From NCBI RefSeq assembly GCF_017875275.1, contig NZ_JAGGML010000001.1, forward strand, positions 3,865,001-3,929,000: a DNA stretch of 64,000 bases, read 5' to 3'. The DNA comes from Xanthobacter flavus. GTDB lineage: Bacteria; Pseudomonadota; Alphaproteobacteria; Rhizobiales; Xanthobacteraceae. Positions 8,431-27,061 of the stretch are shown piece after piece. How positions within the stretch are numbered: position 1 is the first letter of the stretch; every line of letters starts with the position of its first letter. A program made the position numbers and the translations under genes. The notes under the pieces were generated by a model, which was not told the DNA's origin, did no database searches, and was given only the letters and a program-made list of their open reading frames with translations.

Positions 8431-9351
8431 TCAATCGATCTGGCTTTTGGACCAGTTGATAAGAAACCCCCGCACGAAATCCTGGAAGGTCATTGTCAGT
8501 CGGCGCTTGGCCACGCGTTTCAAGTTAATGAGCACCACCTTGAGAGGGCGCACGCCATCTTCCAGGGCGACGTTGACGATCTGGGTCCCGTCATAGGTGG
8601 TCGTTAGTGCGGGCTTCAGGTTCAGGATCGAATAACCTAGTCCATTACCGACCAAAGTGCGAACGGCCTCGAAGGACGAGGACCGAAAACGAACGTGTGG
8701 CTCAAGCCCGAGAGCATAGAAGAGAGAAAGAAAGTATTCGCGGGTGTGCGGTAAGTCCATCAGGATCATGGGCTCGGGGGCAAGTTCCTCAAGGCGCAAG
8801 CTCGTACGCGTGGCGAGCGGATGGGCATTCGGCAAAACCGCAAAGGCGGGAAGCGTCGCCATCGGCACCGCCTGGAATTGATCGGAAAGGCCAAGATCGA
8901 ATGTCAGTGCAGTTTCGACGCGGCCGCTCTTGAGCCCATCAAGGATCTCCTCCTGATCCCCGATCTCAATGTGGATGCGAATTTGAGGGTAGCGGGCCGC
9001 AAAAGAGCCCATGATGTTGGCGAAAACGACTGGGGCGAGGTTGGTAAAGCAGCCCACCGTCAGCTCCCCCTCCACCGCATTGCCCAGAGCGCCGGCGATG
9101 GACTCAAACTCGTCGGCATGAGCCAACAGGCCCCGTGCCTCCAGCGCAACCAACTCGCCGGACGGCGTCAGCGCCAAGCCCTTGGCAGGCTTTCGCACGA
9201 ACAGTTGGAGGCCGACCTGATCTTCAAATTCGCTAATGGTGGTCGAGACCGAGCCCTGGCTCCGGCAGAGACGCTCCGCGGCTGCGGCGATGGTTCCGCA
9301 TTCGGCCACCGTCACAAAGGTCCGGAGCGCTCGGAGCGTAAAGCGGTTCAT
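8431..9351 (-). CDS. LysR-family transcriptional regulator of the nitrilase cluster
   Basis: A 306-residue LysR protein: N-terminal winged helix (residues 5-65, with the pattern AAAERLCRSQGSVSTTISEFE) followed by the two-lobed effector-binding domain (about 90-295). It is divergent from the nitrilase operon with a 125-base gap, the classical arrangement for a LysR activator that also represses itself. An inverted repeat CCGAA-N7-TTCGG lies just upstream of its start. The effector is likely a pathway nitrile, aldoxime or acid (inference). Confidence 0.92.
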   Translation of the reverse strand: MNRFTLRALRTFVTVAECGTIAAAAERLCRSQGSVSTTISEFEDQVGLQLFVRKPAKGLALTPSGELVALEARGLLAHADEFESIAGALGNAVEGELTVGCFTNLAPVVFANIMGSFAARYPQIRIHIEIGDQEEILDGLKSGRVETALTFDLGLSDQFQAVPMATLPAFAVLPNAHPLATRTSLRLEELAPEPMILMDLPHTREYFLSLFYALGLEPHVRFRSSSFEAVRTLVGNGLGYSILNLKPALTTTYDGTQIVNVALEDGVRPLKVVLINLKRVAKRRLTMTFQDFVRGFLINWSKSQID

Positions 9352-9373: not shown

Positions 9374-9476
9374 TTTCTTATGTCTTTTCGAATGCTGCTC
9401 CCGCGATACGATGCTTGCAATAGGGGCACGCCATCGCAATGGCGTAAATTTAAGCAATCAAGAGGAAGCAATTGGG

Positions 9477-10535
9477 ATGCAAGCCGTTTTGAGCGATCGA
9501 GGAAGCCGCAAAGTGGTGGTTGCTGCGGCGCACGTCGCGGCACCCCCCTTCGACTTAGCCGGCGGCGTTGCGAAGGCAATCGAGGTCATTTCGGATGCCG
9601 CTCGGGCGGGTGCCCGTCTCGTGGTGTTCCCGGAGTCGTTCATACCCGGCTTTCCGATCTGGAGCGGCCTCTACCGACCCATAGATGCGCACCGCTTCTT
9701 TCGCCGGTTTGCCGAAAGCGCGCTCCTTTCGGATCGAGGCCCAATAACCGAAATCGCGGCCGCTGCCGCGCGCCACCGAATTTTCGTGAGTCTCGGCTTC
9801 TGTGAAGTTTCTCCGACGAGCCCGGGCTGCATGTGGAATTCGCAGGCGCTCATTTCGGATGCCGGCGAGATCGTGAACCTGCACCGCAAGCTGGTGCCGA
9901 CCTTCTACGAGCAGCTTTCCTGGAACCGCGGAGATGCCGCGGGCCTGCGAGTCGTGGAGACCTCGTTCGCCCGTATCGGCGGGCTGATCTGCGGTGAGAA
10001 CAACAACCCGCTCGCCCGCTACGTGCTGATGAGCGAGGGCGAGGAGATTCACTGCTCCTGCTATCCCGCGATCTGGCCCTTCCGCAATCCGCTGGGCAGC
10101 GCCCCCTATGATCTGAAGGATGCCATCCGCTTCCGCACCGCGGCCCATGCCTTCGAGGCCAAGGTCTTTTGCGTGGTCGCCGCCGGGGTGCTGGACGACG
10201 CCACGGTCGCCGCCGTGAGCGAAGGCGATGAGGAGGTCGCGCAGATGATGCGGGCGTGTCCGCGCGCCTCATCCATGATCGTGGGACCCAACGGCGAGGT
10301 TCTGGCGGAACGGCCACCGGAGACCGAGGGGCTGGTGGTTGCGGAGATCGACCTCTCGACGCTGGTGGAGCTCAAGCAGCACCACGACATGGCCGGTTAT
10401 TACAATCGGCACGAGCTGTTTTCCCTGCGGATACGCCGCGAGCGACCGCGCCTGCTCGACAGCGTGAGCGACGCGCCAGCTGATCTCTATGGCGAGACCG
10501 AGGTGCCGGCTTCGTTCGGCGCCGCCGCGGAATAG
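9477..10535 (+). CDS. Nitrilase-family carbon-nitrogen hydrolase
   Basis: Cytoplasmic enzyme expected to hydrolyse a nitrile to carboxylic acid and ammonia. The catalytic Glu-Lys-Cys triad is complete: Glu53 (FPESFIPGFP), Lys138 (NLHRKLVPT) and Cys172 (GGLICGENNNPLARY). The CGEN context and the 352-residue length match true nitrilases rather than shorter amidases or ureidopropionases. ATG at 9477 follows an AGAGGAAG ribosome-binding site; an in-frame earlier start lacks one. It is the first gene of an operon with an ABC importer and an aldoxime-dehydratase homologue, which supports a nitrile made from, or imported with, an aldoxime. Cyanide hydratase or arylacetonitrilase specificity cannot be told apart by eye. 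Confidence 0.88.
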   Translation: MQAVLSDRGSRKVVVAAAHVAAPPFDLAGGVAKAIEVISDAARAGARLVVFPESFIPGFPIWSGLYRPIDAHRFFRRFAESALLSDRGPITEIAAAAARHRIFVSLGFCEVSPTSPGCMWNSQALISDAGEIVNLHRKLVPTFYEQLSWNRGDAAGLRVVETSFARIGGLICGENNNPLARYVLMSEGEEIHCSCYPAIWPFRNPLGSAPYDLKDAIRFRTAAHAFEAKVFCVVAAGVLDDATVAAVSEGDEEVAQMMRACPRASSMIVGPNGEVLAERPPETEGLVVAEIDLSTLVELKQHHDMAGYYNRHELFSLRIRRERPRLLDSVSDAPADLYGETEVPASFGAAAE

Positions 10536-10544
10536 GAGGAGGCC

Positions 10545-11336
10545 ATGCGCGCCACCCCCCTGCGCCGTTCCCTGCCTGGCGCGCCATTTCTGATCGGCGC
10601 CGCCGCCGTTCTCGCCTTCCTCGCCTGCTGGTGGGTCTCGGCGAGAACATTCGATCCCATGCGCGTTCCGCAGCCGGCGGATGTCTGGGATGCCGCCGTC
10701 CAGCTCGCGACCACGGGCTATGCGGGTGGGACGCTTCTCGATCACACGCTTCATTCCATTCGGCTCGCCTTCCTCGGGTTCGCGGTGGCGGCAGGTTCGG
10801 CCTTGCCCATCGGTCTGGCCATGGGCATGAGCCGGAGCGCGGAAGCGGTGTTCGGCCCCATCATCGCCTTCATACGGCCGATCCCGCCACTCGCCTGGAT
10901 TCCGCTCGCCATCATCTGGTTCGGGCTCGGCGACGGGGCCAAGATCTTCGTGATCTGGTTCACCGCGTTCGTGCCGACACTGATCAACACTTTCACCGGC
11001 GTCCGCAATGTCGACCCCAACATCATTGCCGCCGCCCGCGTGCATGGAGCCGGCACGCGCCGCCTCCTGCTAGACGTGATCCTGCCCGGCGCCGCGCCGA
11101 TGATCTTTTCGGGCCTGCGGGTGTCGCTCCAGGCATCATGGATGGCACTGGTGGCAGCGGAACTGATCGGCGCCTTCTTCGGGCTCGGCCGCGTCCTGAT
11201 GACGGCGGCGCAGGACATCTTCCCGGGCATGATCGTCGTAGCGATGGCCGCGGTGGCGGCCTGCGGGGCGACCATGACCTGGCTTCTCGGCGTCGCCGAG
11301 CGGCGCTGCCTGCCCTGGCTCAAGGTGACGCCATGA
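10545..11336 (+). CDS. ABC transporter permease (SsuC/TauC type), first
   Basis: A 263-residue inner-membrane permease with about six helices. The cytoplasmic EAA loop (INTFTGVRNVDPNIIAAARV, about residues 146-165) contacts the ATPase. The family imports sulfonates, nitrate, taurine, pyrimidine precursors and similar small organics. It begins 9 bases after the nitrilase gene and its stop overlaps the next start (ATGA), indicating translational coupling. Having two different permeases implies a heterodimeric channel. Confidence 0.9.
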   Translation: MRATPLRRSLPGAPFLIGAAAVLAFLACWWVSARTFDPMRVPQPADVWDAAVQLATTGYAGGTLLDHTLHSIRLAFLGFAVAAGSALPIGLAMGMSRSAEAVFGPIIAFIRPIPPLAWIPLAIIWFGLGDGAKIFVIWFTAFVPTLINTFTGVRNVDPNIIAAARVHGAGTRRLLLDVILPGAAPMIFSGLRVSLQASWMALVAAELIGAFFGLGRVLMTAAQDIFPGMIVVAMAAVAACGATMTWLLGVAERRCLPWLKVTP

Positions 11337-12175
11337 GCGTGGACATGCTTTCAAAAAGCGCGACGCGCCTCCCGCCCCGGCGGGCCTCCCGCCCCTGGCT
11401 GCCGCGCGGCGCCCGCCTTCCTCTGCTCTCGGCCGCCAGCATCAGCGTCGTGCTCGGATTGTGGTTCGGCCTCGCCTTGTCAGGGCTGCTGCCGAAGATG
11501 GTCCTGCCATCTCCCTGGGACGTGGCGCAGGCGCTGGTGAAGAACATTGGCGTGCCGTTTGCTGGCGCAACGCTGCAGCAGCACCTCATAGCGAGCCTCG
11601 GGCGCTTCTTCTCGGGCTTTGTCCTCGCGGTGGTGGTCGGTGTGCCGATGGGGCTCGCCATGGGCTGGTTCGCGCCCTTCCGCCACGCCATAGCGCCCTT
11701 CTTCGAGACCTTCCGCTTCATCGCTCCGCTTGCCTGGGTGCCATTTGCGGCGCTGTGGTTCGGCACGGGCATCGGAGGGCCGATCCTCATCGTCTTCTCG
11801 GGTGCTTTCGCGGCCTGCGTCATCAATACGTTCCGTGGCACGCAGATGACCGATGAACGGCTCATCGAGGCATGCCGCACCATGGGGGCGAGCAACTTCA
11901 GGCTCATCGTGGACGTGCTTCTGCCCTCTGCTTTGCCATCCATCATGGCCGGGGTCCGCGTTGCGGCGGCGCTGGGGTGGCAATCGCTGATCGGGGCCGA
12001 GTTGATCGTGGCCTCTTCGGGGGTCGGCTATCTCATCGTGCAGGGGCAGGGCTCGGTGGAAACGCCCATCGTCATGGCCGGCATGGCGACCATCGGCTTC
12101 ATCGGGCTCGTCATCGACCTTGGCCTACGGCAGATCGACGCCCGGATCGGGCGCAACTGGAGGACGGGCGCATGA
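11333..12175 (+). CDS. ABC transporter permease (SsuC/TauC type), second
   Basis: A 280-residue partner permease. A short basic N-terminus precedes the first helix (about residues 32-52), and the EAA-like loop INTFRGTQMTDERLIEACRT lies near residue 163. The chosen ATG at 11333 overlaps the preceding stop; longer upstream versions would run through the previous gene. The stop overlaps the ATPase start in the same ATGA way. Together with its neighbours it forms a complete importer. Confidence 0.9.
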   Translation: MSVDMLSKSATRLPPRRASRPWLPRGARLPLLSAASISVVLGLWFGLALSGLLPKMVLPSPWDVAQALVKNIGVPFAGATLQQHLIASLGRFFSGFVLAVVVGVPMGLAMGWFAPFRHAIAPFFETFRFIAPLAWVPFAALWFGTGIGGPILIVFSGAFAACVINTFRGTQMTDERLIEACRTMGASNFRLIVDVLLPSALPSIMAGVRVAAALGWQSLIGAELIVASSGVGYLIVQGQGSVETPIVMAGMATIGFIGLVIDLGLRQIDARIGRNWRTGA

Positions 12176-12999
12176 GCGGCATCTCATTCAACGACGTCAC
12201 CCGCTCCTTCGAGCGCAAAGGCGGCACCTACCAGGCCCTCGAGCCCGTCTCCCTTCACGTTCCGGATGGCGAGTTCGTGGCCATCGTCGGCCCCTCCGGC
12301 TGCGGCAAGACGACCTTGCTCCGCCTTGCCGCGGGGCTCGACCATCCGACGACCGGCAGCGTGACCGTGGGCGGCCGGACGGTCTCGGGCCCCGGCCCCG
12401 ACCGGGCTGTGGTGTTCCAGCAGTTTGCCCTCCTGCCATGGAAGACAGTGCGTCAGAACATCGGTTTCGGCCTCAAATGCCGTGGTTTGGGCGAAGCCGA
12501 AGCGCGCCCGCTCGTGGACCGCTATCTCGCCACCATGCGCCTCGAAGGCCACGGCGATAGCTATCCCCACCAATTGTCGGGCGGCATGCAGCAGCGGGTT
12601 GCCATCGCCCGCTCCTTCATCCTGGAGCCCGAGGTTCTGCTGATGGACGAGCCCTTCGGAGCGCTCGATGCGCAGACCCGGATCGAAATGCAGGAGGAAC
12701 TCATCCGCCTCACGGCGGGCCAGCGCCGTACCGTGCTGTTCATCACCCATTCCGTGGAGGAGGCAACCTATCTGGCCGATCGCGTGGTGGTGATGGCGGG
12801 CCGGCCTGGTTCCATCCGCGAGATCATCGACGTTGCCGCCCTCCGCAAGTCCGAATGCTGGGCGGAGCGCACTGTCGAGGAGGTTATGGAACTGGACTCG
12901 TTCATCCGCATCCGCACGCGGCTCTGGCGCCTCCTTCGCTCCGCCGGTGCGCACCCGGCGGGCGACGCCACCGACCGCAATCTCTCCATCGCCTCGTGA
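12172..12999 (+). CDS. ABC transporter ATP-binding protein (SsuB/TauB type)
   Basis: A 275-residue ATPase that energises the importer. Walker A is GPSGCGKTT (residues 40-48), the signature is LSGGMQQ (135-141) and Walker B is LLMDEP (156-161), followed by the D-loop GALDAQT and the switch His in FITHSVEEA. The PWKT element near residue 90 is typical of the nitrate/sulfonate/taurine subfamily. It starts by a 4-base overlap with the second permease. All catalytic elements are present. Confidence 0.93.
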
Positions 13000-13058: not shown

Positions 13059-14114
13059 ATGACCAGTCGCAGCCCGACTATCGCCGGCACGCTTTTTGCG
13101 GCCGGATTGATTTTTTCTGCCGTAGTCCCGGCTACTGCCGAAGCCGAGCCCGTGAACATCTCCTATCAGCCGGCTCTCTACTGGTCACTTCCATTCTATA
13201 TCGCCACGGAGCGGGGCTGGTGGAAGGATGTCGGCATCGAGCCGAGCTTCTCCACCTTCCCGGCCGGCCCGCAGCAGATCGCCGCTGCGCCTTCCAAGTC
13301 CTGGGATATCGGCGGCACCGGCTCGCCGCCGGCGGTGCTTGGCGCGGTGCGCTTCAACCTCGTGACCATCGCCCTTGCCGACGATCAGTCCGACACCGCC
13401 TGGGTGGCCGCGCGCGCCAAGGATGCCGACGCTATCCTGAAGGATCCCTCCATCCTGAAGGGCAAGGAAATCCTGCTCACCACCAACTCGACCGGCCACT
13501 ACACCGCGGTGGCCTGCCTGAAGAAGATGGGCCTTGGCCCGAACGAGGTGCGCGTCGTCAATCTCGGCCCGGCCCAGGCCATCGCCGCCTATTCGTCCGG
13601 AAACGGCGCAATTGCCGCCGCGTGGCCGCCCTTCTCCTACACGCTCCAGGAAAAGGCCGACACCAAGACCCTCTGCACCGGCCGCGATGGCGGCGCAGCG
13701 GTGACCGCCGCCGTTGTGGTGCGCGCCGATTACGCGCAGGAGCATCCCGAGACGGTCGCCAAGGTGCTGGCTGTTTACCTGCGCTCCATTGCGTGGCAGA
13801 AGAAGCACCGAGCCGAGACTCTGGAATACATGAAGAAGTTCTATCCCGAGGGCGGTACGACTCTGTCCGACCAATTTATCCAGATCGATTACGATAAGCG
13901 GCCGATCTATACGCTGGACGAGCAGCTGAAGCTGTTCGACCGTTCCAAGGGGCCGTCCGTGATGGATACGTGGCACAACGACCTTGCCGAATATCTAAGG
14001 TCCACCGGGACGCTTCAAAAGACGCCTGACGCCAAGGACTACATCACGGACAAATACCTGAAGATGATCGCCGACGACCCCAAGCTTCACGCGTTTGCGA
14101 TGGACGCGAGCTGA
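13059..14114 (+). CDS. ABC substrate-binding protein (SsuA/NitT/TauT type)
   Basis: Periplasmic binding protein of 351 residues. A signal peptide (about residues 1-30, ending VVPATAEAE) precedes a type II periplasmic fold that opens with VNISYQPALYWSLPFYIATERGWW-like text, as in sulfonate/nitrate binding proteins. The ATG follows GGACAGGAG. It closes the importer set between the ATPase and the aldoxime-dehydratase homologue. The ligand is unknown; the operon suggests an aldoxime, nitrile or related nitrogen compound (inference). Confidence 0.88.
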   Translation: MTSRSPTIAGTLFAAGLIFSAVVPATAEAEPVNISYQPALYWSLPFYIATERGWWKDVGIEPSFSTFPAGPQQIAAAPSKSWDIGGTGSPPAVLGAVRFNLVTIALADDQSDTAWVAARAKDADAILKDPSILKGKEILLTTNSTGHYTAVACLKKMGLGPNEVRVVNLGPAQAIAAYSSGNGAIAAAWPPFSYTLQEKADTKTLCTGRDGGAAVTAAVVVRADYAQEHPETVAKVLAVYLRSIAWQKKHRAETLEYMKKFYPEGGTTLSDQFIQIDYDKRPIYTLDEQLKLFDRSKGPSVMDTWHNDLAEYLRSTGTLQKTPDAKDYITDKYLKMIADDPKLHAFAMDAS

Positions 14115-14122
14115 GCCGGGCG

Positions 14123-15181
14123 ATGAGTGAGCGGCCCGAACGCATCTTCCCTATGAGCCGGCCGGCGGGACATGTCCCGCCGATCGCCCGCTACTCTTCG
14201 CGCTTCGATCACCGCCCCGAGCGGCTCGCGGTGCTCTTCATGGGTATTGCGGCGGAGGAGGGCGGGCGGGCGGCGCTCGCTTTGTCCGACTTCCTGGCGA
14301 TCGCGTGCCGCTCGGCCGATGCTCCGGCCCATTTCGACCGCGCGACGTTCCTCGATGCCAACGGGCGCCGCAACAGCGTGGCGGCGCTCTATTGGCCGGA
14401 CCGCTCCGCATACGGTCGCTGGGTCGAGACGCCCGACGTGGCGGCGTGGCGCGCGGGGCACCGCGCGCTCGCCGAGGATTTCGGCCAATGGTGGGAGCCG
14501 GTGAACGTCGCACCGGACCGCTCCGAAACGATCGCGTTCGCCGAGTATCGCCGCGGCTTGTCCGCATGCCCCTTCTCCCGGCTCGAGCAAATGGGGGAGA
14601 CCGGCTACTGGGGCGCCGCGCGCGACCGCATCCCCGCCTCCGGCTGGGACCGGCTTGCGGGAGAAGTGGCCTCGCTCGTAGCCCTCGGGCGGACGTCGGA
14701 AAGCCGTGGCCTGCGCCTCGCCATCCGCCCGCCGTCGGGACTTGCGGTGATCCGCTCGGGCGTGTCCTGGTCGGCCTGCGGTGCGGAGCAGCGCGAAAGC
14801 TATGAACGCAATGTGCGGCCCAAGCTCGACGCCGGGATGGAGTATCTGCGCCGCAATCCGGTCGAGACCGGCTGCCCCGCTTTGCGGCAGGTGGTGCTGA
14901 CGGATAACGAGGGCGGGGAGCTGGAAGAAGCCTATTCCCTTGGCCTGTTCCTGTCGCTCGGCCACCTGGAGGCCTGGGCGAAGGACCATCCGACCCATCT
15001 TGCCATCTATCACCGGGCGATGGCCGAGCGGCGCAAATATCAGGAGGCGCTGGAGCTTCGCACCTATAACGAGATCTACGTGCTTGATGAGCACGCCGCC
15101 GACTTCGAGTATGTGAACTGCGATCCGTCGGTCGGCCTCATCCCCTATTTCGCCGCCCGGGTGCTGGCGTCGGGCACCTGA
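14123..15181 (+). CDS. Aldoxime dehydratase homologue (haem-dependent OxdA/OxdB family)
   Basis: Members dehydrate aldoximes to nitriles using ferrous haem b. The 352-residue length and conserved blocks match this family: YWGAARDRIP (162-171, holding the active-site Arg), SWSACG (215-220, active-site Ser), GHLEAWAKDHPTH (280-292, with His292 aligned to the proximal haem ligand) and the end block EYVNCDPSVGLIPYF. In characterised members the distal catalytic His lies in an LYHEV or LWHEV block; here the aligned text is TYNEI, putting Asn316 in that place. It follows the ABC binding protein by 8 bases and shares an operon with a nitrilase, the next enzyme of the aldoxime-nitrile pathway. The family call is strong; activity is uncertain because of Asn316. 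Confidence 0.85.
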   Translation: MSERPERIFPMSRPAGHVPPIARYSSRFDHRPERLAVLFMGIAAEEGGRAALALSDFLAIACRSADAPAHFDRATFLDANGRRNSVAALYWPDRSAYGRWVETPDVAAWRAGHRALAEDFGQWWEPVNVAPDRSETIAFAEYRRGLSACPFSRLEQMGETGYWGAARDRIPASGWDRLAGEVASLVALGRTSESRGLRLAIRPPSGLAVIRSGVSWSACGAEQRESYERNVRPKLDAGMEYLRRNPVETGCPALRQVVLTDNEGGELEEAYSLGLFLSLGHLEAWAKDHPTHLAIYHRAMAERRKYQEALELRTYNEIYVLDEHAADFEYVNCDPSVGLIPYFAARVLASGT

Positions 15182-15190
15182 TCACCGCGC

Positions 15191-15952
15191 ATGCCCGATC
15201 CCCATATTCTCACGATGGTGCTCGTCCTGTCAGCGGTGGTGGCCGTCGCAGCCGTGCTGCGCGGCTTTACCGGGTTCGGCTTCGGCCTGTTCGCCATGCC
15301 TTTCGCCTCGTTCTTTATGGATCCGGCGAGTGCAGTGCCGGTCATGCTCCTGCTCCAGCTCGCCTCCGGAGCTGTAACGCTGCGCAGCGATCTTGCGGCG
15401 GTGGACCGGAGCAGCAGCGCGGCGATCTCCGCGGCCGGCCTGCCCTTCGTCGCGGTCGGGGCAGTGCTGCTCCATCTCGCGCCACAGAATGTGGTGCGGC
15501 TGGTGGTGGGCATCGTGACCATCGGCGCAGCGCTGGCTCTGGCCTTTGCGCCGCCGGTGCGCACGCCGCGACCGAGCCTTGTGCTTACGCTTGCGGCGGG
15601 AGCATCGTCCGGATTCCTGCAGGGACTCGTCGCCATGGGCGGGCCGCCGCTCACAGCTTTCTATCTGAGAGGATGGTTTGCTCCAGCGACCGCCCGCGCA
15701 TCGATGACGCTGGTATTTTCGCTGTTCTGCGCCGCGCCCCTGCTGTTCGGCGCCCTGACCGGGCAAGTGGCAGGTCGCGCCTTTGCCCTCGCGCTGGCCT
15801 TGCTCCCGGCGTTGGTGATAGGCACCCTCATCGGAGGCATGGTTTTCAAGCGGCGTCCCAACGGGCACCGGGGCGTAGCGCTGATCGCTCTTGTTCTGGT
15901 CGGAGCGATGGCAGCCATTCGCGCCACGCTTCTCCTGATCTGCCACTGGTGA
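15191..15952 (+). CDS. TauE/SafE (TSUP) family membrane exporter
   Basis: A 253-residue protein with about eight hydrophobic helices in two repeats; the first opens with RGFTGFGFGLFAMP and the second with GLVAMGGPPLTAFYLRG, both typical of TSUP proteins. Characterised relatives export sulfite, sulfoacetate or other anions. As the last gene of the nitrilase operon it could export an acid product or an anion released from the substrate. Substrate unknown. Confidence 0.88.
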   Translation: MPDPHILTMVLVLSAVVAVAAVLRGFTGFGFGLFAMPFASFFMDPASAVPVMLLLQLASGAVTLRSDLAAVDRSSSAAISAAGLPFVAVGAVLLHLAPQNVVRLVVGIVTIGAALALAFAPPVRTPRPSLVLTLAAGASSGFLQGLVAMGGPPLTAFYLRGWFAPATARASMTLVFSLFCAAPLLFGALTGQVAGRAFALALALLPALVIGTLIGGMVFKRRPNGHRGVALIALVLVGAMAAIRATLLLICHW

Positions 15953-16906: not shown

Positions 16907-18136
16907 ATGGTCGGCCAGCACACGCTTGGGCGTGCCCTTTTCTCTGCCTTGTGCCTTGCGACGCTAGCCCCAGCCGGGACGGCTCGGGCCGAGGACGTGA
17001 AAATCGCTCTCATTGCCCCGGTCTCCGGACCGATGGCCCGGCAGGGCGACCTCATGCGCAAGGGCGCAGAGCTGGCCATCGAGGACATCAACGCCGCGGG
17101 CGGCATCAAGGCGCTTGGCGGTGCCAAGCTGTTGCTCATGGTCGAGGATGCCGGCGACAAGGTGGAGACCGCCAAGAACGCAGCCCAGCGCCTTGTCGCG
17201 AACCGCGCCGGCGTGGTGGCCGGCACTGGCGCCTGGAGTTCTTCGCTCACCCTCGCCGTGACCGAGGTCACGGAGCGGGCGGAACTGCCGTGGCTCACCC
17301 TCTCCTATGCCGACCAGATCACCAGCCGCGGCTTCAAATATGTCGTCCAGACTGTACCGGTGGCGAGCCAGCTCGCGCTCAGTTCCATGCCCACCGTGCT
17401 CGACATGGCGCAAGCCGCCTCCGGCAAGCGCCCCACCAAGGTGGCCATCATCTCCGACAGCACGGCGGCCTCGCAGGCGTTCGTGACGCCGCTACGCGAC
17501 GGCGGCTTCCAGAAGCTCGGCGTCACCGTCGTTTCCGATGACGTGTTCACGCCGCCGCTGACCGACGCCACCGCTATGATCCAGAAGCTCAGGGCCACCA
17601 GACCGGACTTCCTCCTGTTCTATTCCACCAGCTTTCCCGACGCGAAGCTGGTGCTCAACAAGATGAACGAGTTCGGTTTGGGCAAGGGCAAGCTGCCGGC
17701 AGTCACCGTGGGGGTGCAGCTCGCCAGCCCAGAGATCCTGAAGGCAGTGGGTCCCGAGTTGCTGGAAGGGCTCGTGGTGGTGGCGCCGAACTGGCCATCC
17801 AAGGCGCAGGAGGCCGCGCTGCCGGGCCTCACCCGTCGCAGCGGTGAGCCGTGGCTGGGGCAGGACACGATCAGCACCTATGGCGACGTATGGCTCATCA
17901 AGGATGCGCTGGAACGGGCCGGGTCCACTGACGGCGCCAAGCTGATGGCGGCGCTGCGCGCGACCAACCGCAGCGACGGACCGGCCGATTACTATCTCGG
18001 GGATCGCCTCGCCTTCGACCACAATGGCCGCCGGGTGGGAGGCGCCGTCGGCCTCGTCCAATGGCAGGCGGGCCTGCCCTACCTGATCTGGCCCAAAGAG
18101 GACGCCGTACGCACACCGCTTTGGCCGAAATCGTGA
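16907..18136 (+). CDS. Branched-chain-amino-acid-type ABC binding protein (LivK family)
   Basis: Periplasmic type I binding protein of 409 residues. Signal peptide about 1-28 (APAGTARAED), then VKIALIAPVSGPMARQGD, the usual opening of Leu/Ile/Val/amide-binding proteins. ATG at 16907 follows AGGGAGC. It begins an operon with LivH-, LivMG- and LivF-like genes and a cyclase-family hydrolase. In alphaproteobacteria such systems often import aromatic acids, amides or other organics; the ligand here is unknown. Confidence 0.9.
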   Translation: MVGQHTLGRALFSALCLATLAPAGTARAEDVKIALIAPVSGPMARQGDLMRKGAELAIEDINAAGGIKALGGAKLLLMVEDAGDKVETAKNAAQRLVANRAGVVAGTGAWSSSLTLAVTEVTERAELPWLTLSYADQITSRGFKYVVQTVPVASQLALSSMPTVLDMAQAASGKRPTKVAIISDSTAASQAFVTPLRDGGFQKLGVTVVSDDVFTPPLTDATAMIQKLRATRPDFLLFYSTSFPDAKLVLNKMNEFGLGKGKLPAVTVGVQLASPEILKAVGPELLEGLVVVAPNWPSKAQEAALPGLTRRSGEPWLGQDTISTYGDVWLIKDALERAGSTDGAKLMAALRATNRSDGPADYYLGDRLAFDHNGRRVGGAVGLVQWQAGLPYLIWPKEDAVRTPLWPKS

Positions 18137-18194
18137 GAGCCGGGCGGCGGATCATCCCGCCGCCCCCCGCATTCCCGAACGAGGCGGGGTGCCC

Positions 18195-19154
18195 ATGCCT
18201 TTCTATCCTTCAGGCCTTGAGGCCTTCTTCCAGGCCGTGGCCACCGGGCTTCTGGTCGGCGCGACCTACGGCCTGATGTGCGTCGCTCTCGGCCTCATCT
18301 TCGGCATCATGCGCCTGATCAATTTCGCGCAGGGCGACTTCCTTATGCTGGGAATGTACTTCGCACTGGCGATCATGTCAGGGCTTGGGCTCGCTTCCCT
18401 GTTGGGATCCCTGCCTGCGCTCGTCCTGGCGGCGGTCGCAGCGGTGCCGATCTTCTTCGCAGTGGGTTGGCTCATGCATCGCCTGCTTCTCGGCCGCATC
18501 GGCCGGGACCGTCCGGACATGACAGAAGGCGAGATGCACCAGACCCAGCTCATCATGACCCTTGGCATCTCCCTCGTTCTTTCCAACGGCGGACTAATGG
18601 CGTTCGGCTCTACGCCTGTCTCCCTGAACACGCCTATGGCCTCGCAAGCCCTGGTGCTCGATGCCTTCGGCGGTGACATGATGGTGTTCCTCAACGAGGC
18701 GCGCATTCTGGCGGCGGTAGCGGCGCTCGCCGCATGCGGCGGGCTTTATGCCTTGCTCCACCGCACCGATCTCGGCAAGAAGCTGCGGGCGGCGGCGGAC
18801 AATCCGCTCGCCGCGATTTACATGGGCGTGGACGTGGCGCGCTGCCACCGGGTCACGTTCGGGCTCGGCTTCGGCCTCACTGCCCTCGCCGGCGCGATGG
18901 TCGCGAGCTATTACCCCTTTCAGCCCTATGTGGGCCTCGACTTCGTTATCGTGATGTATGCCGGTGTTGTGCTGGGCGGTCTCGGCTCGATCATGGGCTC
19001 GTTCTGGGGCGGGCTGGTCATCGGGCTGGTGCAACAGCTCTCCACGCTCGTGCTGCCCATGCAGCTCCAGAGCACCACTGTGTTCGTGGTCTTCCTGCTT
19101 ATCCTCCTCATCCGCCCGCAGGGGCTGTTCGGCCGCAGCGTGGAGCGCGCCTGA
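18195..19154 (+). CDS. Branched-chain-amino-acid-type ABC permease (LivH family)
   Basis: A 319-residue inner-membrane permease with about eight helices. The conserved start (LLVGATYGLMCVALGLIFGIMRLINFAQGDFLMLG, residues about 20-55) marks LivH. ATG at 18195 is chosen because GAGGCG lies 8 bases upstream; an in-frame GTG at 18189 has no space for a ribosome-binding site. The next gene follows after 3 bases. It should pair with the permease half of the fused downstream protein. Confidence 0.92.
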   Translation: MPFYPSGLEAFFQAVATGLLVGATYGLMCVALGLIFGIMRLINFAQGDFLMLGMYFALAIMSGLGLASLLGSLPALVLAAVAAVPIFFAVGWLMHRLLLGRIGRDRPDMTEGEMHQTQLIMTLGISLVLSNGGLMAFGSTPVSLNTPMASQALVLDAFGGDMMVFLNEARILAAVAALAACGGLYALLHRTDLGKKLRAAADNPLAAIYMGVDVARCHRVTFGLGFGLTALAGAMVASYYPFQPYVGLDFVIVMYAGVVLGGLGSIMGSFWGGLVIGLVQQLSTLVLPMQLQSTTVFVVFLLILLIRPQGLFGRSVERA

Positions 19155-19157
19155 GCC

Positions 19158-20913
19158 ATGTTCAGCATGCACCCTCGCTTCGCCTTTGCCGGCATAGCCG
19201 CCCTCGCTATCGGGTGGGCACTCGCCGTCCTCATGACCACGAATTCCTACTACCAGCTCATGCTGGCGCTGGTGCCGGTCTGGGCGGTGATGGGCCTCTC
19301 CTGGAATGTCTTCTCGGGCTACTCCGGGCTCGTCTCCTTCGGTCATGCGGCCTTCTTCGGGATCGGCGCCTACACCACGACCCTTCTCTTCGCAAAGGGC
19401 GGGATAACGCCCTGGATCGGCATTCCCGCCGCGGCCGTGGCGGGCAGCATCGCCGGCGTCGTCATCGGCGCGATCACCTTCCGGCTGCGCGGGCATTACT
19501 TCGCCCTCGCCATGCTCGCCTATCCGCTGGCCATGCTTTACGTGTTCGAATGGGCCGGTTTTCAAGAGGTGTCCTTTCCCATGAAGCGGGAGGATCCCGC
19601 CCTCTTCATGCAGTTCGCCGACCAGCGCTGGAACGCGCTCATCGGTCTTGGCCTGCTCGTCCTGGCCATGCTGGTCTCGCTAATGGTGGAGCGCTCGCGC
19701 TTCGGCATGTCGCTGCTCGCCATCAAGCAGAACGAGATCGCGGCCGAGGTTGCAGGGATCGACAGCTTCCGCTGGAAGCTCAAGGCCATTGCCCTCTCCG
19801 GCGCGCTGGCCGGGGCAGCGGGGGGCTTCTATGCCGTCGTGCTGCTGGTGGTTACCCCATTTACCGTCTTCGGCCTCGCGACCTCTGCCCAGGCGCTCAT
19901 CGTCACCATGTTCGGCGGAGTGGGAACCCTGTGGGGCCCGGTTGTGGGCGCGGCGATTCTCGTCCCCGTCTCCGAAATTCTCCATGCCGAGCTAGGTGGC
20001 ATGCTGCCTGGAATTCAGGGCGTGGTGTTCGGCATCGCCATCATCCTGGTCATGCTTAAAATGCCTCAAGGCATCGTCTGGGGGCTCAGGGACCGGCTGT
20101 TTGCCCGCCGCGAGCGGCCGGCCCGTTCGAGAGAGAGAGTGGATCGGAGCGTCGAGCGGCTAGCGACGCCATTTCAACTGCCTGCCCATGCCGCTGTGAT
20201 GCTCGAGGCCGAGGGCATCTCCCGCAGCTTCGGCGGCGTACGGGCGCTGACCGATGTGAGCTTCCGGGTTCGCACTCAGGAAATCCTCGGCATCATCGGT
20301 CCCAACGGAGCCGGAAAGACCACGCTGTTCAATATCCTCAACGGTCTCGTCGCTCCCGGCAGCGGCGCCGTGCGGCTGAGAGGGCGCGACATATCCGGCC
20401 TGAAGCCCAGCCGCATATGTGCCCGTGGCGTTGGACGAACTTTCCAGGTCGCACGGGTATTCGCCCGCATGTCGCTTCTGGAGAACGTCGTGGTGGGTGC
20501 CTTCGTAGACACCGCGAGCGACGCGGACGCCGCCGAACGCGCCCGCGAGGCGCTGGGGCGTGTCGGCCTTGCTGACCTTGCTGAGGCCCCCGCCGAAGCC
20601 CTCACGAACCACGAGCTGCGCCTCCTAGAGGTCGCCCGTGCCCTTGCCTCCCGCCCTACGCTGCTGCTGATGGATGAGCCATTCGCCGGTCTCGATGCCG
20701 GCGAGATTCGCGCTTTCATTGGCCTGATCCGCGGCTTGCGGGACGATGGTATGACCATCGTCATCATCGAGCATACTATGCACGCGATGGTGAAGCTGGT
20801 GGACCGCTTCGTTGTCCTCGACCGCGGCAGCGTGATCGCCGATGGCGCGCCACAGGACGTGGTGCGCGACCGCACCGTAATCTCTGCCTATCTCGGCGAC
20901 AAATGGGTGGCCG

Positions 20914-20927
<14 letters not shown>
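19158..20927 (+). CDS. Fused ABC permease-ATPase (LivM-LivG)
   Basis: One 589-residue chain joins a LivM permease (residues about 1-315, with the [13 protein letters not shown] block near 70) to a LivG ATPase (about 346-589). A charged linker ([19 protein letters not shown], about 316-334) separates them. The ATPase has Walker [10 protein letters not shown] near 381, the LivG Phe/Asn-rich loop, a variant signature ([15 protein letters not shown]) and Walker B LLLMDEP near 504. The classical LSGG is replaced by TNHE, common in LivG of this type. It overlaps the LivF gene by 14 bases. Fusions of this pair occur elsewhere but are less common than separate genes. Confidence 0.9.
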
Positions 20928-21621
<694 letters not shown>

Positions 21622-21648
21622 CCCCGGTGCTCCGATCCGAGGCTCTCC

Positions 21649-22386
21649 ATGTGCGATATCTGTGTGAACCCGAAGTCGGGCTGGCGCGGCTTCATGGAGC
21701 TGCCACCCCGCCGTACGCTGGTCGCGACGGGGGATTGGATCGACCTCTCCCATCCGGTCGGTCCCGAGATGCCCTGCGCGTCCATTTTCCCGGCCCCCCG
21801 TTTCGAGCGGCTGCGGCAGGTGCCGCATGACCCGTTCAACGTCACCGAGATCCACATGGTGGCCCATGCCGGGACGCATGTGGATTCGCCGCTCCATTTC
21901 TTCAACGACGCGCCCGGCTTCGAGGACATCCCGCCCGAGCGGCTGTCGGGCCCCGGCGTTGTCTGGCACCTGCCGCAGCCGCCGGATGCCGTGATCGGCG
22001 TCGGCACGCTGCAGCGGGCGCGTCCGCTGCTCCAGCCCGGGGATATCCTCGCCATCGACACCGGCTGGGCCGCACGGGTGGGCACGCCGCTCTATGAGCG
22101 TCATCCAAGCCTCTCGGTGGAGGCGGCCCGGTGGCTGGTGGAGCAGCGCATCAAGCTGCTCGCCTGTGATTTCGCCACGCCCGACCTCGTCTACCACCTG
22201 CGGCCGGCGGGCTTCGACTGGCCGGTCCACCACGCGCTGCTGGGCAACGGCGTCCTCGTCTGCGAGCATCTGACGGGCCATGCCGCGCTGGCCGGGCAGC
22301 GGGTCGAGTTCATGTTCGGCGCGTTGAACATCGTCGGCTGCGACGGCGCGCCCGCGCGCGTGCTGGCCCGCCCGATCGCCGACTGA
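21649..22386 (+). CDS. Cyclase/kynurenine-formamidase-family metal hydrolase
   Basis: A 245-residue enzyme with the diagnostic metal motif HAGTHVDSPLHF (near residues 74-85), found in kynurenine formamidases, isatin hydrolases and related putative cyclases. The reaction is usually Zn- or Mn-dependent hydrolysis of an amide or lactam-like bond. The N-terminus MCDICVNP carries a CxxC pair ahead of the fold. It lies 27 bases after LivF in the same direction, suggesting that it acts on the imported compound. Substrate not deducible. Confidence 0.85.
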   Translation: MCDICVNPKSGWRGFMELPPRRTLVATGDWIDLSHPVGPEMPCASIFPAPRFERLRQVPHDPFNVTEIHMVAHAGTHVDSPLHFFNDAPGFEDIPPERLSGPGVVWHLPQPPDAVIGVGTLQRARPLLQPGDILAIDTGWAARVGTPLYERHPSLSVEAARWLVEQRIKLLACDFATPDLVYHLRPAGFDWPVHHALLGNGVLVCEHLTGHAALAGQRVEFMFGALNIVGCDGAPARVLARPIAD

Positions 22387-22407
22387 GCGACCGGGCGGGC
22401 CACGGTG

Positions 22408-23898
22408 TCACACCCGGACGGCGAAGGGGTCGCGGACGTCGTCGGAAAAATCCACCATCACGTTCTTGGTGCGCAGGAATTCATAGAGGCCCGCCTCCCC
22501 GCGCTCGCGTCCGAAGCCGCTTTCCTTCACTCCGCCGAACGGCGTCTGCGCGGCGGAGGCGCGATAGGTGTTGACCCAGACCATGCCGGAGCGGATGGCC
22601 CGGCTCACCCGCATGGCGCGGTTGAGGTCCTGCGTCCAGATGCCGGAAGCGAGGCCGAAGCGGACATCGTTGCCGATCGCTACCGCCTCCCCCTCGTCGT
22701 CGAAGGGGAGGATGGAGAGAACCGGTCCGAACACCTCCTCCTGCGCGATTCGCATGGAGTTCCGGACATTGGCGAATATGGTGGGCTTCACGAAGAGCCC
22801 GCGGGCGAGGTCGCCCTCCCGCGCCGCCTCGCCGCCGGCCCGGAGCTCGGCCCCCTCCGCCTTCGCCGAGGCGATGAAGTCAAGGATCATGTTGAACTGC
22901 GGCTCGTTGGCCGCGGTGCCCATCTCGGTGGCCGGATCGAGCGGGTCGCCGAGCCGGATATCGCCGGCGCGCGCCACCAGCCGCTCGACCACCGTGTCAT
23001 AGACCGGGCGTTGCACCAGCAACCGCGAGCCGGCGATGCAGGTCTGTCCCGTCGCGGCGAAGATGCCGGCGAGGGCGCCCACCACCGCCCGGTCGAGATT
23101 GGCGTCGGAGAAGATCATGTTGGGCGACTTGCCGCCCAGCTCCATGATGACCGGCACCAGCGCCTTGCCCGCGGCGGCGGCCACCTTGCGGCCGGTATGG
23201 CCGCTGCCGGTGAAGGAGACCTTGTCGACCCCCGCCTCGATCAGCGCCTGCCCGGTGCGGCCATCGCCCGTGACCACGTTGAACACGCCGGGCGGAAAGC
23301 CGGCCTGCTCCACCAGCTTGGCGAACTCCAGCGTGGTAATGGACGCGTGCTCGGACGGCTTCACCACCACGCAGTTCCCGGCCGCCAGCGCGGCCGGGAG
23401 CTTGTTCGCGAGGAGCGCCATGGGCGAGTTCCAGGCGGTGATCAGCGCCACCACGCCGAACGGTTCATAGGCCGCGTAGTCGAATACGTTCTGCTGGTCG
23501 AGGGGGATGACCTTGCCCCAGATCTTGTCCGCATAGCCTGCGAAGAAGCGGTAGAGGCGCGCCGAGAACAGCATCTGCGGGCCGGTCTCGCGAATCACCT
23601 TGCCGTTGTCCGTGGTCTCCAGCCGCGCCATGCGGTCGGCGTTCTCTTCCAGGAGCTCCGCGAGGCGCAGCATCAGGCGCCCGCGCTCGAGCCCGCTTGT
23701 GTGCCGCCAGGTGCTCTCGAAGGCGCGGCGGGCGGCGGCGACGGCCTCCTCCACGTCGGCGGGGGCGGCCTGGGAGACGAGGGCCCAGGGCTCCTGCGTG
23801 TAAGGATTGTAGGTGGGGAAGGTCGCATCGCGTTGCGCCGGCGTCCAGCGGCCGTCGATATAGAGTTGGTAGGTCTTGAGCTGGCCGAGGGCGTTCAT
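22408..23898 (-). CDS. NAD(P)-dependent aldehyde dehydrogenase
   Basis: A 496-residue soluble dehydrogenase, full length for the superfamily. The catalytic Glu lies in MELGGKSPNMIFSDANLDRA and the nucleophilic Cys in GQTCIAGSRLLV. The oxyanion Asn lies in ALITAWNSPMALL. It converges with the cyclase gene and is divergent from the GMC oxidoreductase, sharing a 300-base intergenic region that has two copies of a GCATACTGG motif. The pairing with an alcohol-oxidising GMC enzyme suggests alcohol to aldehyde to acid conversion. Confidence 0.93.
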   Translation of the reverse strand: MNALGQLKTYQLYIDGRWTPAQRDATFPTYNPYTQEPWALVSQAAPADVEEAVAAARRAFESTWRHTSGLERGRLMLRLAELLEENADRMARLETTDNGKVIRETGPQMLFSARLYRFFAGYADKIWGKVIPLDQQNVFDYAAYEPFGVVALITAWNSPMALLANKLPAALAAGNCVVVKPSEHASITTLEFAKLVEQAGFPPGVFNVVTGDGRTGQALIEAGVDKVSFTGSGHTGRKVAAAAGKALVPVIMELGGKSPNMIFSDANLDRAVVGALAGIFAATGQTCIAGSRLLVQRPVYDTVVERLVARAGDIRLGDPLDPATEMGTAANEPQFNMILDFIASAKAEGAELRAGGEAAREGDLARGLFVKPTIFANVRNSMRIAQEEVFGPVLSILPFDDEGEAVAIGNDVRFGLASGIWTQDLNRAMRVSRAIRSGMVWVNTYRASAAQTPFGGVKESGFGRERGEAGLYEFLRTKNVMVDFSDDVRDPFAVRV

Positions 23899-24198
23899 TC
23901 CGTCTCTCCCTGACGCTGGCGAACCGGCGGGCCTTCACGCCCGCACATGCTTTGACGGCGCCGACGCTAGAAGCGCCGACCATAGGGGAAAAATACCTTC
24001 TTTCGCTGCCGGGATGCGGCAAGGGCATACTGGCTTCCGGCAGCCGACAATGCGCAAGGCGCATACTGGAGGTCGTTTCGTGATTATCTTTCGATGGTGA
24101 AGGCTCCTAAGGTCGGCGCACGGGCCGGGAACGCGAGGCGCACGGCGCATTTCCGGGATGAAGCTCGACGGTCAAGCAAGACCGCAAGGGACGGTGGG
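23899..24198. promoter_or_regulatory. Divergent promoter region with two GCATACTGG boxes
   Basis: The 300-base region between the aldehyde dehydrogenase and GMC oxidoreductase starts. Two copies of GCATACTGG occur at 24025-24033 and 24061-24069, 36 bases apart, each preceded by GCAAGG. The same motif occurs upstream of the flavoprotein gene (28092) and of tctC (34251). Spacing of 36 bases is about 3.4 helical turns. Likely bound by the CysB-like regulator encoded at 27091-28038 (inference). Confidence 0.5.
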
Positions 24199-25881
24199 AT
24201 GATGGGAACGCCAGAAAAGGAGGCCGCGGTCGCGGCAGCGGAAGTCCACGTGTTTGATTTCGTCATCGTCGGAGCGGGTTCGGCCGGCTGCGTGCTGGCG
24301 AACCGCCTGTCGGCGGACGGCAAATTCAAGGTGCTGCTGATCGAGGCCGGGGGACGGGACACCTCCATCAACATCCATGTGCCCCTGATGGTCGTGAACC
24401 TGCTGCGGGACGAGCGCTATACTTGGCCGTTCATGACCGAGAAGCAGGTCCACCTGAACGGGAAGGAGCAGCTGTGGGCCCGCGGCAAGGTGCTGGGCGG
24501 ATCAAGCTCCATCAACGGCAACGTCTATGTCCGCGGCGACCCCGCGGAGTTCAACAGCTGGACCAGCATGGGCTGCCCCGGCTGGGGCTGGGAGGACATG
24601 CTGCCCTTCTTCAAGCGCATGGAGAATTTTGCCGACGGCAATCCCGACACCCGCGGCAAGGGCGGACCCATCAACGTCACGCAGCTGAAGAATTTCGACA
24701 AGCTCGCCGACGCTTATCTCGCCGCCAACCGGGAGGCCGGATTCGAGCTCGTCAACGACTACAACGACGGCCATTACGAAGGCGCGTCCTACCTGCAGTA
24801 TTCGACCCGCCGCGGCTTCCGCTGCTCCTCGTCGGTCGGCTACCTGCGGCCGGCGCGCGGGCGCGCGAACCTCACGGTGTGGACCAACACCATGGTCGGG
24901 CGGGTCCTGCTGGAGGGCCGGCGCGCGGTGGGCGTGGAATGCCTGAGGGAGGGCAGGGCGGTCCACGCGCGGGCGAGCCGCGAGGTGATCCTCTCCGCCG
25001 GTCCGCTGCAGTCGCCCAAGATCCTGGAGCTGTCCGGCATCGGGCGGCCGGACGTGCTCGCTCCGCTCGGCATCGCGCTGCGCCACGAGCTGCCGGGCGT
25101 GGGCGAGAACATGTCGGACCATCCCAACGTCCGGCTCACCTTCGAGTGCGCCCAGCCCATCACCATCAACGACGTGCTCCAGCGCCCCACCAGCAAGCTG
25201 AAGGAGGGGTTGCGCTACATCCTGTTCGGCAAGGGCCTGCTCTCCATCTGCTCCGCCACCGCGCACACGGTGATGCGCAGCAATCCTGGAGAGAACCAGC
25301 CGGACCTGAAGCTCCAGCTGCAGCCTTTCTCCGGCAAGGACCGGTACGCGCGCCGGCCCAAGGACGGGCTCGATCCCTATTCGGGCTTCACCATCGGCAT
25401 CATGGCCCTGCGGCCCCGCTCACGCGGCTACGTCCACGTCGCCTCGGCCGACCCGATGAAGCACCCGAGGATCGACCCGAACTACCTGGCGGAGGAGGAC
25501 GACGCGCGGGTGCTGATGGCCGGCATCCGCGCCGTGCGGCGCCTTGCCGAGGCGCCGTCGCTCAAGCGCCTGATCGTGCGCGAGACGCGGCCGGGGCCCG
25601 AGGTGCAGAGCGAAGCGGACATCATCGCCTACATCCGCTCGACGGCGCAGACCACTTGGCATGTGGTCGGCTCCTGCAAGATGGGGATGGACCCTCTCGC
25701 CGTGGTCGATCCGGACCTCAGGGTCCACGGCATCGAGGGGCTCAGGGTCGTGGATTCCTCGGTGTTCCCGACCATTCCCTCGTCCAACACCAATGCGCCG
25801 ACCATCGCGCTCGGGGAACGGGGCGCCGATCTCATCCTGCGCGCCGCGGAACGAGGCACCGAAATGAGCCGGGCGGCCTGA
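24199..25881 (+). CDS. GMC-family FAD oxidoreductase (alcohol dehydrogenase/oxidase)
   Basis: A 560-residue flavoenzyme that should oxidise an alcohol. FAD motif DFVIVGAGSAGCVLANRLS (about residues 22-40), GMC signature 1 GKVLGGSSSINGNVYVRG (about 95-112), signature 2 GPLQSPKILELSGIG (about 270-284), and C-terminal catalytic WHVVGSCKMG plus NTNAPTIALGERG, supplying the His and Asn. Start 24199 (ATGATG) is chosen because it lies close before the FAD motif; an open extension to 24094 has low-complexity basic text. Seven bases separate it from the next gene. Choline, PEG or other alcohol specificity cannot be decided. Confidence 0.9.
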   Translation: MMGTPEKEAAVAAAEVHVFDFVIVGAGSAGCVLANRLSADGKFKVLLIEAGGRDTSINIHVPLMVVNLLRDERYTWPFMTEKQVHLNGKEQLWARGKVLGGSSSINGNVYVRGDPAEFNSWTSMGCPGWGWEDMLPFFKRMENFADGNPDTRGKGGPINVTQLKNFDKLADAYLAANREAGFELVNDYNDGHYEGASYLQYSTRRGFRCSSSVGYLRPARGRANLTVWTNTMVGRVLLEGRRAVGVECLREGRAVHARASREVILSAGPLQSPKILELSGIGRPDVLAPLGIALRHELPGVGENMSDHPNVRLTFECAQPITINDVLQRPTSKLKEGLRYILFGKGLLSICSATAHTVMRSNPGENQPDLKLQLQPFSGKDRYARRPKDGLDPYSGFTIGIMALRPRSRGYVHVASADPMKHPRIDPNYLAEEDDARVLMAGIRAVRRLAEAPSLKRLIVRETRPGPEVQSEADIIAYIRSTAQTTWHVVGSCKMGMDPLAVVDPDLRVHGIEGLRVVDSSVFPTIPSSNTNAPTIALGERGADLILRAAERGTEMSRAA

Positions 25882-25888
25882 GGAAACC

Positions 25889-27061
25889 ATGATCGAGCGC
25901 ATTGAGGTCTTCGTCACCGAGCTGCCCATCCGATTGAAGCGCATCTTCTCCAGCGGAAGCTACGACACCGGTCCCGCCGGGCAGCTGCTCGGCAAGCCGG
26001 TGTTCGTGAAGATCCACGCCGACGGCGTCGTGGGCTGCGCGCAAATCCGGCCCATCAGCCCCGGCCACTTCGTGGCGGATACGACCCATTCTGTGGTGGC
26101 CGCCATCAGGGAGATCTACGGCCCGAATCTTCTCGGCCGCAGCATCTTCGACATGGAGGCCATCACCGAGATGTTCGACCTGCGCCTCGCCGGCAATCCG
26201 GCGGCGCGGGCGGTGCTCGACATCGCCCTCCACGACGCCATGGGCAAGGCGCTGGGCGTTCCGGTCTACTCGCTCCTCGGGGGACGCAGCCAGGGCGTCA
26301 TCCCGCTCGAATGGTCGGTGAGCCTTGCTGACGACGTGGCGGTGATGATCGCCGAGGCGAAGCGCGCGGTGGACGAGTTCGGCATCAGGGTGATCTGCCT
26401 CAAGGCGGCGGGCCGCAAGGGCTGGCGCGAGGACGTGCGGAACTTCGAGGCGGTGCGGCGTGCCGTGGGTGACGACATCGTTATCGGCGTCGATCCCAAC
26501 ACCGGCTGGACCGTGCCGGATTGCATCGCCGCTATGGAGGCCATGCGGCCGTTCGACGTGGGCTATGTGGAGCAGCCGGTGGGCCGGCGCGACCTCGCTG
26601 GGCTGGCGGAGATCCGTCGGAACGCCCGCGGCGTTCCCCTCATGGCCGACGAGAGTCTGTTCACCATCGAGGATGCGACCGCGCTCGCCGAGGTGAAGGT
26701 AGTAGATGTGTTCTGCATCAAGCTCTACAAGGTGGGCGGGCTGACGCCGGCGCGAAAGATATCCGCCATCGCGCAAGGCGCCGGCATTCAGCTGAACTGC
26801 GGCGGCCTTGCCACCGTCTCGACCTTCGAGGCGGCGGCCTCGGCCCATTTCTGCGCCACGATTCCGGCGCGGCGGACCTTCGGCGCGGCGGAGTTCGTGT
26901 TCGGCCTCGGGCCGCTTGGGCGGGACCCGCTGGCGGCGAACGAGGCCCTGGCCATCAAGGACGGCGCCGTCGCCGTGCCGGAAGGGCCGGGCCTCGGCAT
27001 CGTCCTCGACGAGGCCGCCCTGGAGAAGGCGACGTTGCTCAAGGAGGTCGTCGCCCGCTGA
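25889..27061 (+). CDS. Enolase-superfamily enzyme (mandelate racemase/muconate lactonizing type)
   Basis: A 390-residue enzyme with capping domain (about 1-130) and TIM-like barrel. Metal ligands are visible in order: Asp in IGVDPN, Glu in YVEQPVG and Asp/Glu in MADES. The second-strand base motif, usually KxK, reads ICLKAAG, so only the second Lys seems retained; the opposite Lys lies in CIKLYKVGG. This resembles the muconate cycloisomerase subgroup with a changed first base. Expected chemistry is proton abstraction next to a carboxylate: cycloisomerisation, dehydration or racemisation. It is cotranscribed with the GMC gene. Confidence 0.85.
   Translation: MIERIEVFVTELPIRLKRIFSSGSYDTGPAGQLLGKPVFVKIHADGVVGCAQIRPISPGHFVADTTHSVVAAIREIYGPNLLGRSIFDMEAITEMFDLRLAGNPAARAVLDIALHDAMGKALGVPVYSLLGGRSQGVIPLEWSVSLADDVAVMIAEAKRAVDEFGIRVICLKAAGRKGWREDVRNFEAVRRAVGDDIVIGVDPNTGWTVPDCIAAMEAMRPFDVGYVEQPVGRRDLAGLAEIRRNARGVPLMADESLFTIEDATALAEVKVVDVFCIKLYKVGGLTPARKISAIAQGAGIQLNCGGLATVSTFEAAASAHFCATIPARRTFGAAEFVFGLGPLGRDPLAANEALAIKDGAVAVPEGPGLGIVLDEAALEKATLLKEVVAR

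Follow-up and report, generated by a model that had tools for sequence, protein, structure and literature searches.

The 64,000-nucleotide stretch of Xanthobacter flavus DNA analysed here (the window) encodes an aldoxime dehydratase (Oxd) homologue in which asparagine replaces the distal catalytic histidine. The haem ligand and the active-site Arg, Ser and Glu residues are kept. Together with the Oxds of two other species the protein forms a single clade, in which the gene lies in the same nitrilase operon and is under purifying selection. We propose, with a probability of about 0.5, that it is a folded, functional, haem-binding member of the Oxd family that exchanged its distal His for Asn once and that would catalyse a nitrile-forming N-O elimination, feeding the nitrilase. 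Since evolution has retained it next to the gene for the following pathway step, the protein probably has an altered mechanism or another substrate. We infer its haem binding, reaction, proton route and substrate, and the choice among an altered mechanism, an altered substrate and an altered reaction is likewise made by inference.

The open reading frame has no internal stops. Its product matches the Pfam family PF13816 (Dehydratase_hem) with E = 2e-68 and 231.5 bits (cut-off 25) and covers profile positions 17-310 of 310, which is nearly the full length. A phmmer search of the PDB returned aldoxime dehydratases only, namely 7f2y (OxdB), 3a15 (OxdRE) and 3w08 (OxdA), with E = 1e-43 to 1e-50. 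No match to an IsdG-type haem monooxygenase family was obtained, with PF13816 the only Pfam hit and Oxds the only PDB hits. By these searches the window protein clearly belongs to the Dehydratase_hem family, in line with the aldoxime dehydratase homology of the original prediction.

In all three phmmer alignments, the Asn of TYNEI stands opposite the catalytic His of the L[YW]HEV block (LYHEV or LWHEV) of OxdB, OxdRE and OxdA. The family alignment, in which OxdRE residues are numbered as chain number minus 20, pairs OxdRE H320 with N316, R178 with R169, S219 with S212, H299 with H292 and E143 with E135 (Table 1). A profile HMM built from His-type members only aligned residues 285-340 of the window protein without gaps, each of the columns shown having the maximal posterior. 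The original prediction had placed Asn at the distal position, read its codon as AAC, a single base away from the His codon CAC, and named His292 as the proximal haem ligand and the Arg of YWGAARDR as a family residue, all of which holds. Its choice of Ser217 was mistaken, the substrate-binding residue being Ser212.

That the Asn reflects a misalignment or a sequencing error, with the true distal His elsewhere, is hardly credible. We found nothing in support of this reading; the segment 285-340 is gapless at maximal posterior, and the AAC codon is present in independent genomes of two genera. No other His occupies the distal position. When the His residues conserved in all three Asn proteins were checked, no replacement specific to the clade was found. 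Only H17, H281, H289 and H292 are common to the three, and each also occurs in part of the His-type family; H17 is kept throughout the Asn clade, but 24% of the remaining homologues have it as well. An AlphaFold2 model made from three sequences (pLDDT 41, pTM 0.32) was too poor for a structure search or superposition.

Table 1. Features of the Asn-type Oxd gene and its operon (positions in the window).
Feature	Position	Strand	Basis or remark
LysR-type regulator, divergent	8431..9351	-	Pfam; conserved in the X. tagetidis (L009) and G1248 (L087) loci
Nitrilase (CN_hydrolase)	9411..10535	+	Glu/Lys/Cys residues FPESF, RKL and CGEN present; conserved start probably 9477
ABC permease 1 (BPD_transp_1, SsuC/TauC-like)	10545..11336	+	
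ABC permease 2 (BPD_transp_1)	11333..12175	+	
ABC ATPase	12172..12999	+	
Periplasmic substrate-binding protein (SBP), NitT/TauT (SsuA/NMT1) type	13059..14114	+	
Asn-type aldoxime dehydratase homologue (Dehydratase_hem), 352 aa	14123..15181	+	ORF, PDB search, Pfam, family alignment
Glu135 codon (OxdRE Glu143)	14525..14527	+	Family alignment
Arg169 codon (OxdRE Arg178, distal His partner)	14627..14629	+	Family alignment
Ser212 codon, in VIRSG (OxdRE Ser219, binds oxime OH)	14756..14758	+	Family alignment
His292 codon, proximal haem ligand (OxdRE His299), in HPTH	14996..14998	+	Family alignment
Asn316 codon AAC, site of the distal acid-base His320 of OxdRE/OxdA	15068..15070	+	Alignments, codon reading
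TauE/SafE-family exporter	15191..15952	+	In both Xanthobacter operons, absent from the third

Aldoxime dehydratases are rare among haem enzymes in that they act directly on an organic substrate, and the distal His is central to the mechanism described for them. The amide side chain of Asn is a poor acid or base, and an acid-base role is not expected of it. In OxdA, Ser219 is proposed to fix the oxime OH, His320 to act in acid-base catalysis and the haem iron to bind the substrate, with Arg178 as a proposed proton relay to His320 (PMC5391958). The H320A variant of OxdA was reported to be without dehydratase activity, and in H320D catalase, peroxidase and peroxygenase activities rise, a shift towards redox reactions (PMC5391958). 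Both variants are altered at the position that differs in the window protein, but they are engineered single changes without the clade-specific residues. The original prediction that catalysis must be altered or lost, or that the substrate differs, follows from these variants; its option of simple loss is the part that the evidence weighs against.

At the defining catalytic residue, His320, the protein departs by alignment from the standard definition of an aldoxime dehydratase, and all three clade members have Asn there; the Ser219, Arg178 and Glu143 of that definition are present as Ser212, Arg169 and Glu135. OxdRE (Rhodococcus, PDB 3A15-3A18) and OxdA (Pseudomonas chlororaphis, 3W08) are aliphatic aldoxime dehydratases of the same family and domain layout. 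Like them, the window protein also keeps the proximal His, and its gene lies beside that of a nitrile-converting enzyme. Unlike them, it has Asn316 for His320 and a different set of pocket residues (A147 to F139, M29 to R23, F306 to A299 and L318 to T314), it scores 198.4 bits against the cut-off of 600 of the NCBIfam OxdA equivalog for aliphatic aldoxime dehydratase (NF050090), and its partner is a nitrilase instead of a nitrile hydratase. The best-scoring solved relative is OxdB, the phenylacetaldoxime dehydratase of Bacillus sp. OxB-1 (PDB 7F2Y, E = 9.5e-50). OxdB likewise works with a nitrilase and aligns without gaps around the distal site, but it has LWHEV, with His, and a Thr at the Ser219 position.

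Among 76 aligned homologues, the distal residue is His in 71, Asn in three, which form one clade, and Val in two, which form another; on these sequences the distribution of the distal Asn is far from chance. The Asn-bearing relatives found in the survey as scoped are only two, an Oxd of Xanthobacter tagetidis (genome G013; 77% identical to the window protein) and one of genome G1248, from another genus of the same family (L068; 54% identical). Both carry LRTYNEI, and the Asn codon is AAC in all three genes. In each of these two genomes the Asn protein is the sole Dehydratase_hem protein. Whether the variant forms a clade had been named as a check on the original prediction, and the tree of the 76 homologues is clear on this point: the Asn trio is monophyletic with a support of 100, and in a careful tree with the columns of window-protein residues 310-322 removed the clade stands at 100/100. 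State changes on the 76-homologue tree are at their minimum of two, one to Asn and one to Val. As the tree reads, the distal His was replaced by Asn once, in the ancestor of a small Xanthobacteraceae clade, which gives the Asn a single ancient origin. A chance mutation or decay in one strain is ruled out, as two further species share both the Asn and the operon.

The survey covered genomes from the genus, family, order, class and phylum, 34 plasmid records (ten of them read) and 85,000 species scanned by pattern. Further Asn-bearing members may exist, since the pattern scan is limited to close relatives and the residue-level reading does not include about 65 Bradyrhizobium-type matches (30-34% identical to the window protein). 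In the literature searched, we found no report of natural Asn variants of aldoxime dehydratase and no paper that links X. tagetidis with nitriles.

The genes of the window operon are separated by short gaps or overlap. A seven-gene order, in which a divergent LysR gene is followed by nitrilase, permease, permease, ATPase, SBP and Oxd genes, is common to all three Asn genomes; the X. tagetidis operon (L009) matches the window including TauE and the G1248 operon (L087) matches it without TauE. Oxd-nitrilase gene clusters are a known arrangement of the aldoxime-nitrile pathway (PMC8955678), and all three loci have this arrangement. The operon nitrilase is apparently intact by sequence. Its nearest kin in 199 family genomes are exactly the nitrilases of the two other Asn operons, at 85% and 71%, with the next at 52% or below. 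The operon is patchy in its distribution, occurring in 2 of 14 genomes of the genus, the window's included, and in 1 of 16 genomes of the other genus.

Downstream of the operon, positions 16907-27061 of the window resemble a further catabolic cluster. A complete ABC cluster of the branched-chain amino acid type comes first, and behind it lie cyclase, aldehyde dehydrogenase, GMC oxidoreductase and mandelate-racemase-type genes. That the ABC genes at 16907-21621 belong to the Oxd system is not supported, because unrelated genes follow the X. tagetidis operon. There, the next genes encode an AraC-like regulator, a sulfatase-maturation protein (FGE) and a sulfatase (L009 11185-13652).

In two genomes, the only Oxd that has been retained is the Asn protein, next to a nitrilase; this makes a nitrile-forming function the most likely one, with about even odds for an aldoxime-type reaction. 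The NitT/TauT-type ABC transporter of the operon would import the substrate, with the LysR protein as the putative regulator. Haem-iron-assisted N-O elimination by the Asn-type Oxd would then yield a nitrile, to be hydrolysed to an acid by the operon's nitrilase. Asn316 may hold the oxime oxygen by a hydrogen bond. As Asn is a poor acid-base, protons would have to be delivered and removed through Arg169/Glu135, through water or through a group on the substrate; otherwise the leaving group would need no proton, the reaction would have changed or activity would have been lost. Against our preferred reading count the inactivity of OxdA H320A, the fast evolution of the Oxd gene within its operon and a proton route that is a proposal only.

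From the inactivity of OxdA H320A, loss or a changed reaction is possible for the Asn-type protein. A catalytically dead haem protein, either retained for sensing or scavenging aldoximes or nitriles or simply in slow decay, seems rather improbable. The essential His is gone, and the Oxd is the fastest-evolving gene of the operon, with dN/dS of 0.26 in the closest pair versus 0.06-0.14 for the other core genes and 0.19 for TauE. Against this reading, the ORF is intact in three species and dN/dS among the three Asn proteins (0.23-0.41) is well below 1. These values are not above those of His-type pairs at similar dS (median 0.53-0.62, many probably saturated), a control that is weak because dS saturates and from which no more follows than that dN/dS is not raised in the Asn clade. 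Conservation among the Asn proteins is highest in the active-site segments: between the window and X. tagetidis, 105 of 115 residues (91%) are identical there and 161 of 229 (70%) elsewhere, and for G1248 the counts are 84 of 115 (73%) and 88 of 224 (39%). The single ancient origin, purifying selection, active-site conservation, the strict operon linkage to the nitrilase and the absence of any further Oxd from two of these genomes thus all argue against simple loss.

The Asn-type protein may instead have changed its reaction, becoming a redox haem enzyme (a peroxidase, a peroxygenase or an O2-dependent enzyme) or forming a nitrile from a substrate other than an aldoxime. We regard this as unlikely. 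It would be consistent with the redox activities gained by OxdA on replacement of His320 with Asp (PMC5391958), and with the distal Asn used by the IsdG haem-degrading enzymes of the same fold superfamily (PMC4835899), although the latter is an analogy only. Positions private to the clade include F139, V214, T160 and I318, which also fit a changed reaction. F139 corresponds to Ala147 of OxdRE, a pocket residue (PMC8456930), so the substrate pocket has probably been reworked together with the catalytic residue. However, the remaining residues of the dehydratase site (Ser212, Arg169 and Glu135) are unchanged, and the strict linkage to the nitrilase points to a nitrile product.

In another scenario, the nitrile would arise from an O-substituted oxime, for instance an O-sulfonated or O-acylated one. 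Here, the leaving group would need no protonation and the acid-base His would be dispensable. The operon's transporter is of the taurine/sulfonate type, a TauE-type exporter is present in both Xanthobacter genomes, and genes for sulfatase maturation and a sulfatase follow the X. tagetidis operon. But transporter families are poor predictors of substrate, TauE is absent from the third operon and the sulfatase genes are seen in X. tagetidis only, and we hold this scenario to be a long shot.

We put forward tentatively, and at somewhat less than even odds, a further-reaching reading: the clade may represent a nitrile-forming haem N-O lyase of natural origin that has no distal acid-base His, relies on Asn together with proton transfer by the substrate, Arg, Glu or water, and possibly acts on O-substituted oximes. 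If so, this clade, with its dedicated transporter and nitrilase, would make up a subclass of aldoxime dehydratases with a distinct mechanism. Since this natural lineage has lost the His and kept the haem ligand, the remaining site and the nitrilase partner, it allows a direct examination of how far the His is needed. It may also be a source of biocatalysts with other substrates or redox activity, given the gain of redox functions already documented for OxdA H320D.

The window genome also encodes a His-type Oxd paralogue of another clade (L001, G000:C1:791091-792107), 38% identical to the window protein. Like the window Oxd gene, it is clustered with nitrilase, ABC transporter and LysR genes; unlike it, it has LRTWHEV, with His, and a transporter of the branched-chain amino acid type. 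This second aldoxime-nitrile cluster (L102, G000:C1:784799-793300) comprises a nitrilase, a branched-chain-type ABC transporter, the His-type Oxd, a LysR gene and an amidase-like gene.

The two Val-type homologues, L057 (G417:C7:21180-22103) and L058 (G569:C66:8584-9426), make up a second clade without the distal His. They differ from the window protein in having Val at position 320 and Glu at the Ser219 position, and are of separate origin. L057, like the window Oxd gene, lies beside CN_hydrolase and ABC transporter genes, and also beside an aldehyde dehydrogenase gene; L058 contains an in-frame TAG. In-frame stops were also seen in Oxd copies of other genomes (L044, TGA; L059, TAA; L070, TGA; L071, two TAG), which suggests that this accessory gene decays frequently. 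On a contig classified as viral in IMG/VR (L088, 461-3385), a nitrilase gene is followed by genes for a His-type Oxd and an outer-membrane-like protein; this contig may be a misclassified bacterial element. Finally, Oxd genes were found on plasmids NZ_CP021881.1 (H13) and NZ_CP020902.1 (H14) of Escherichia coli and Klebsiella pneumoniae, unexpected hosts for an aldoxime pathway.
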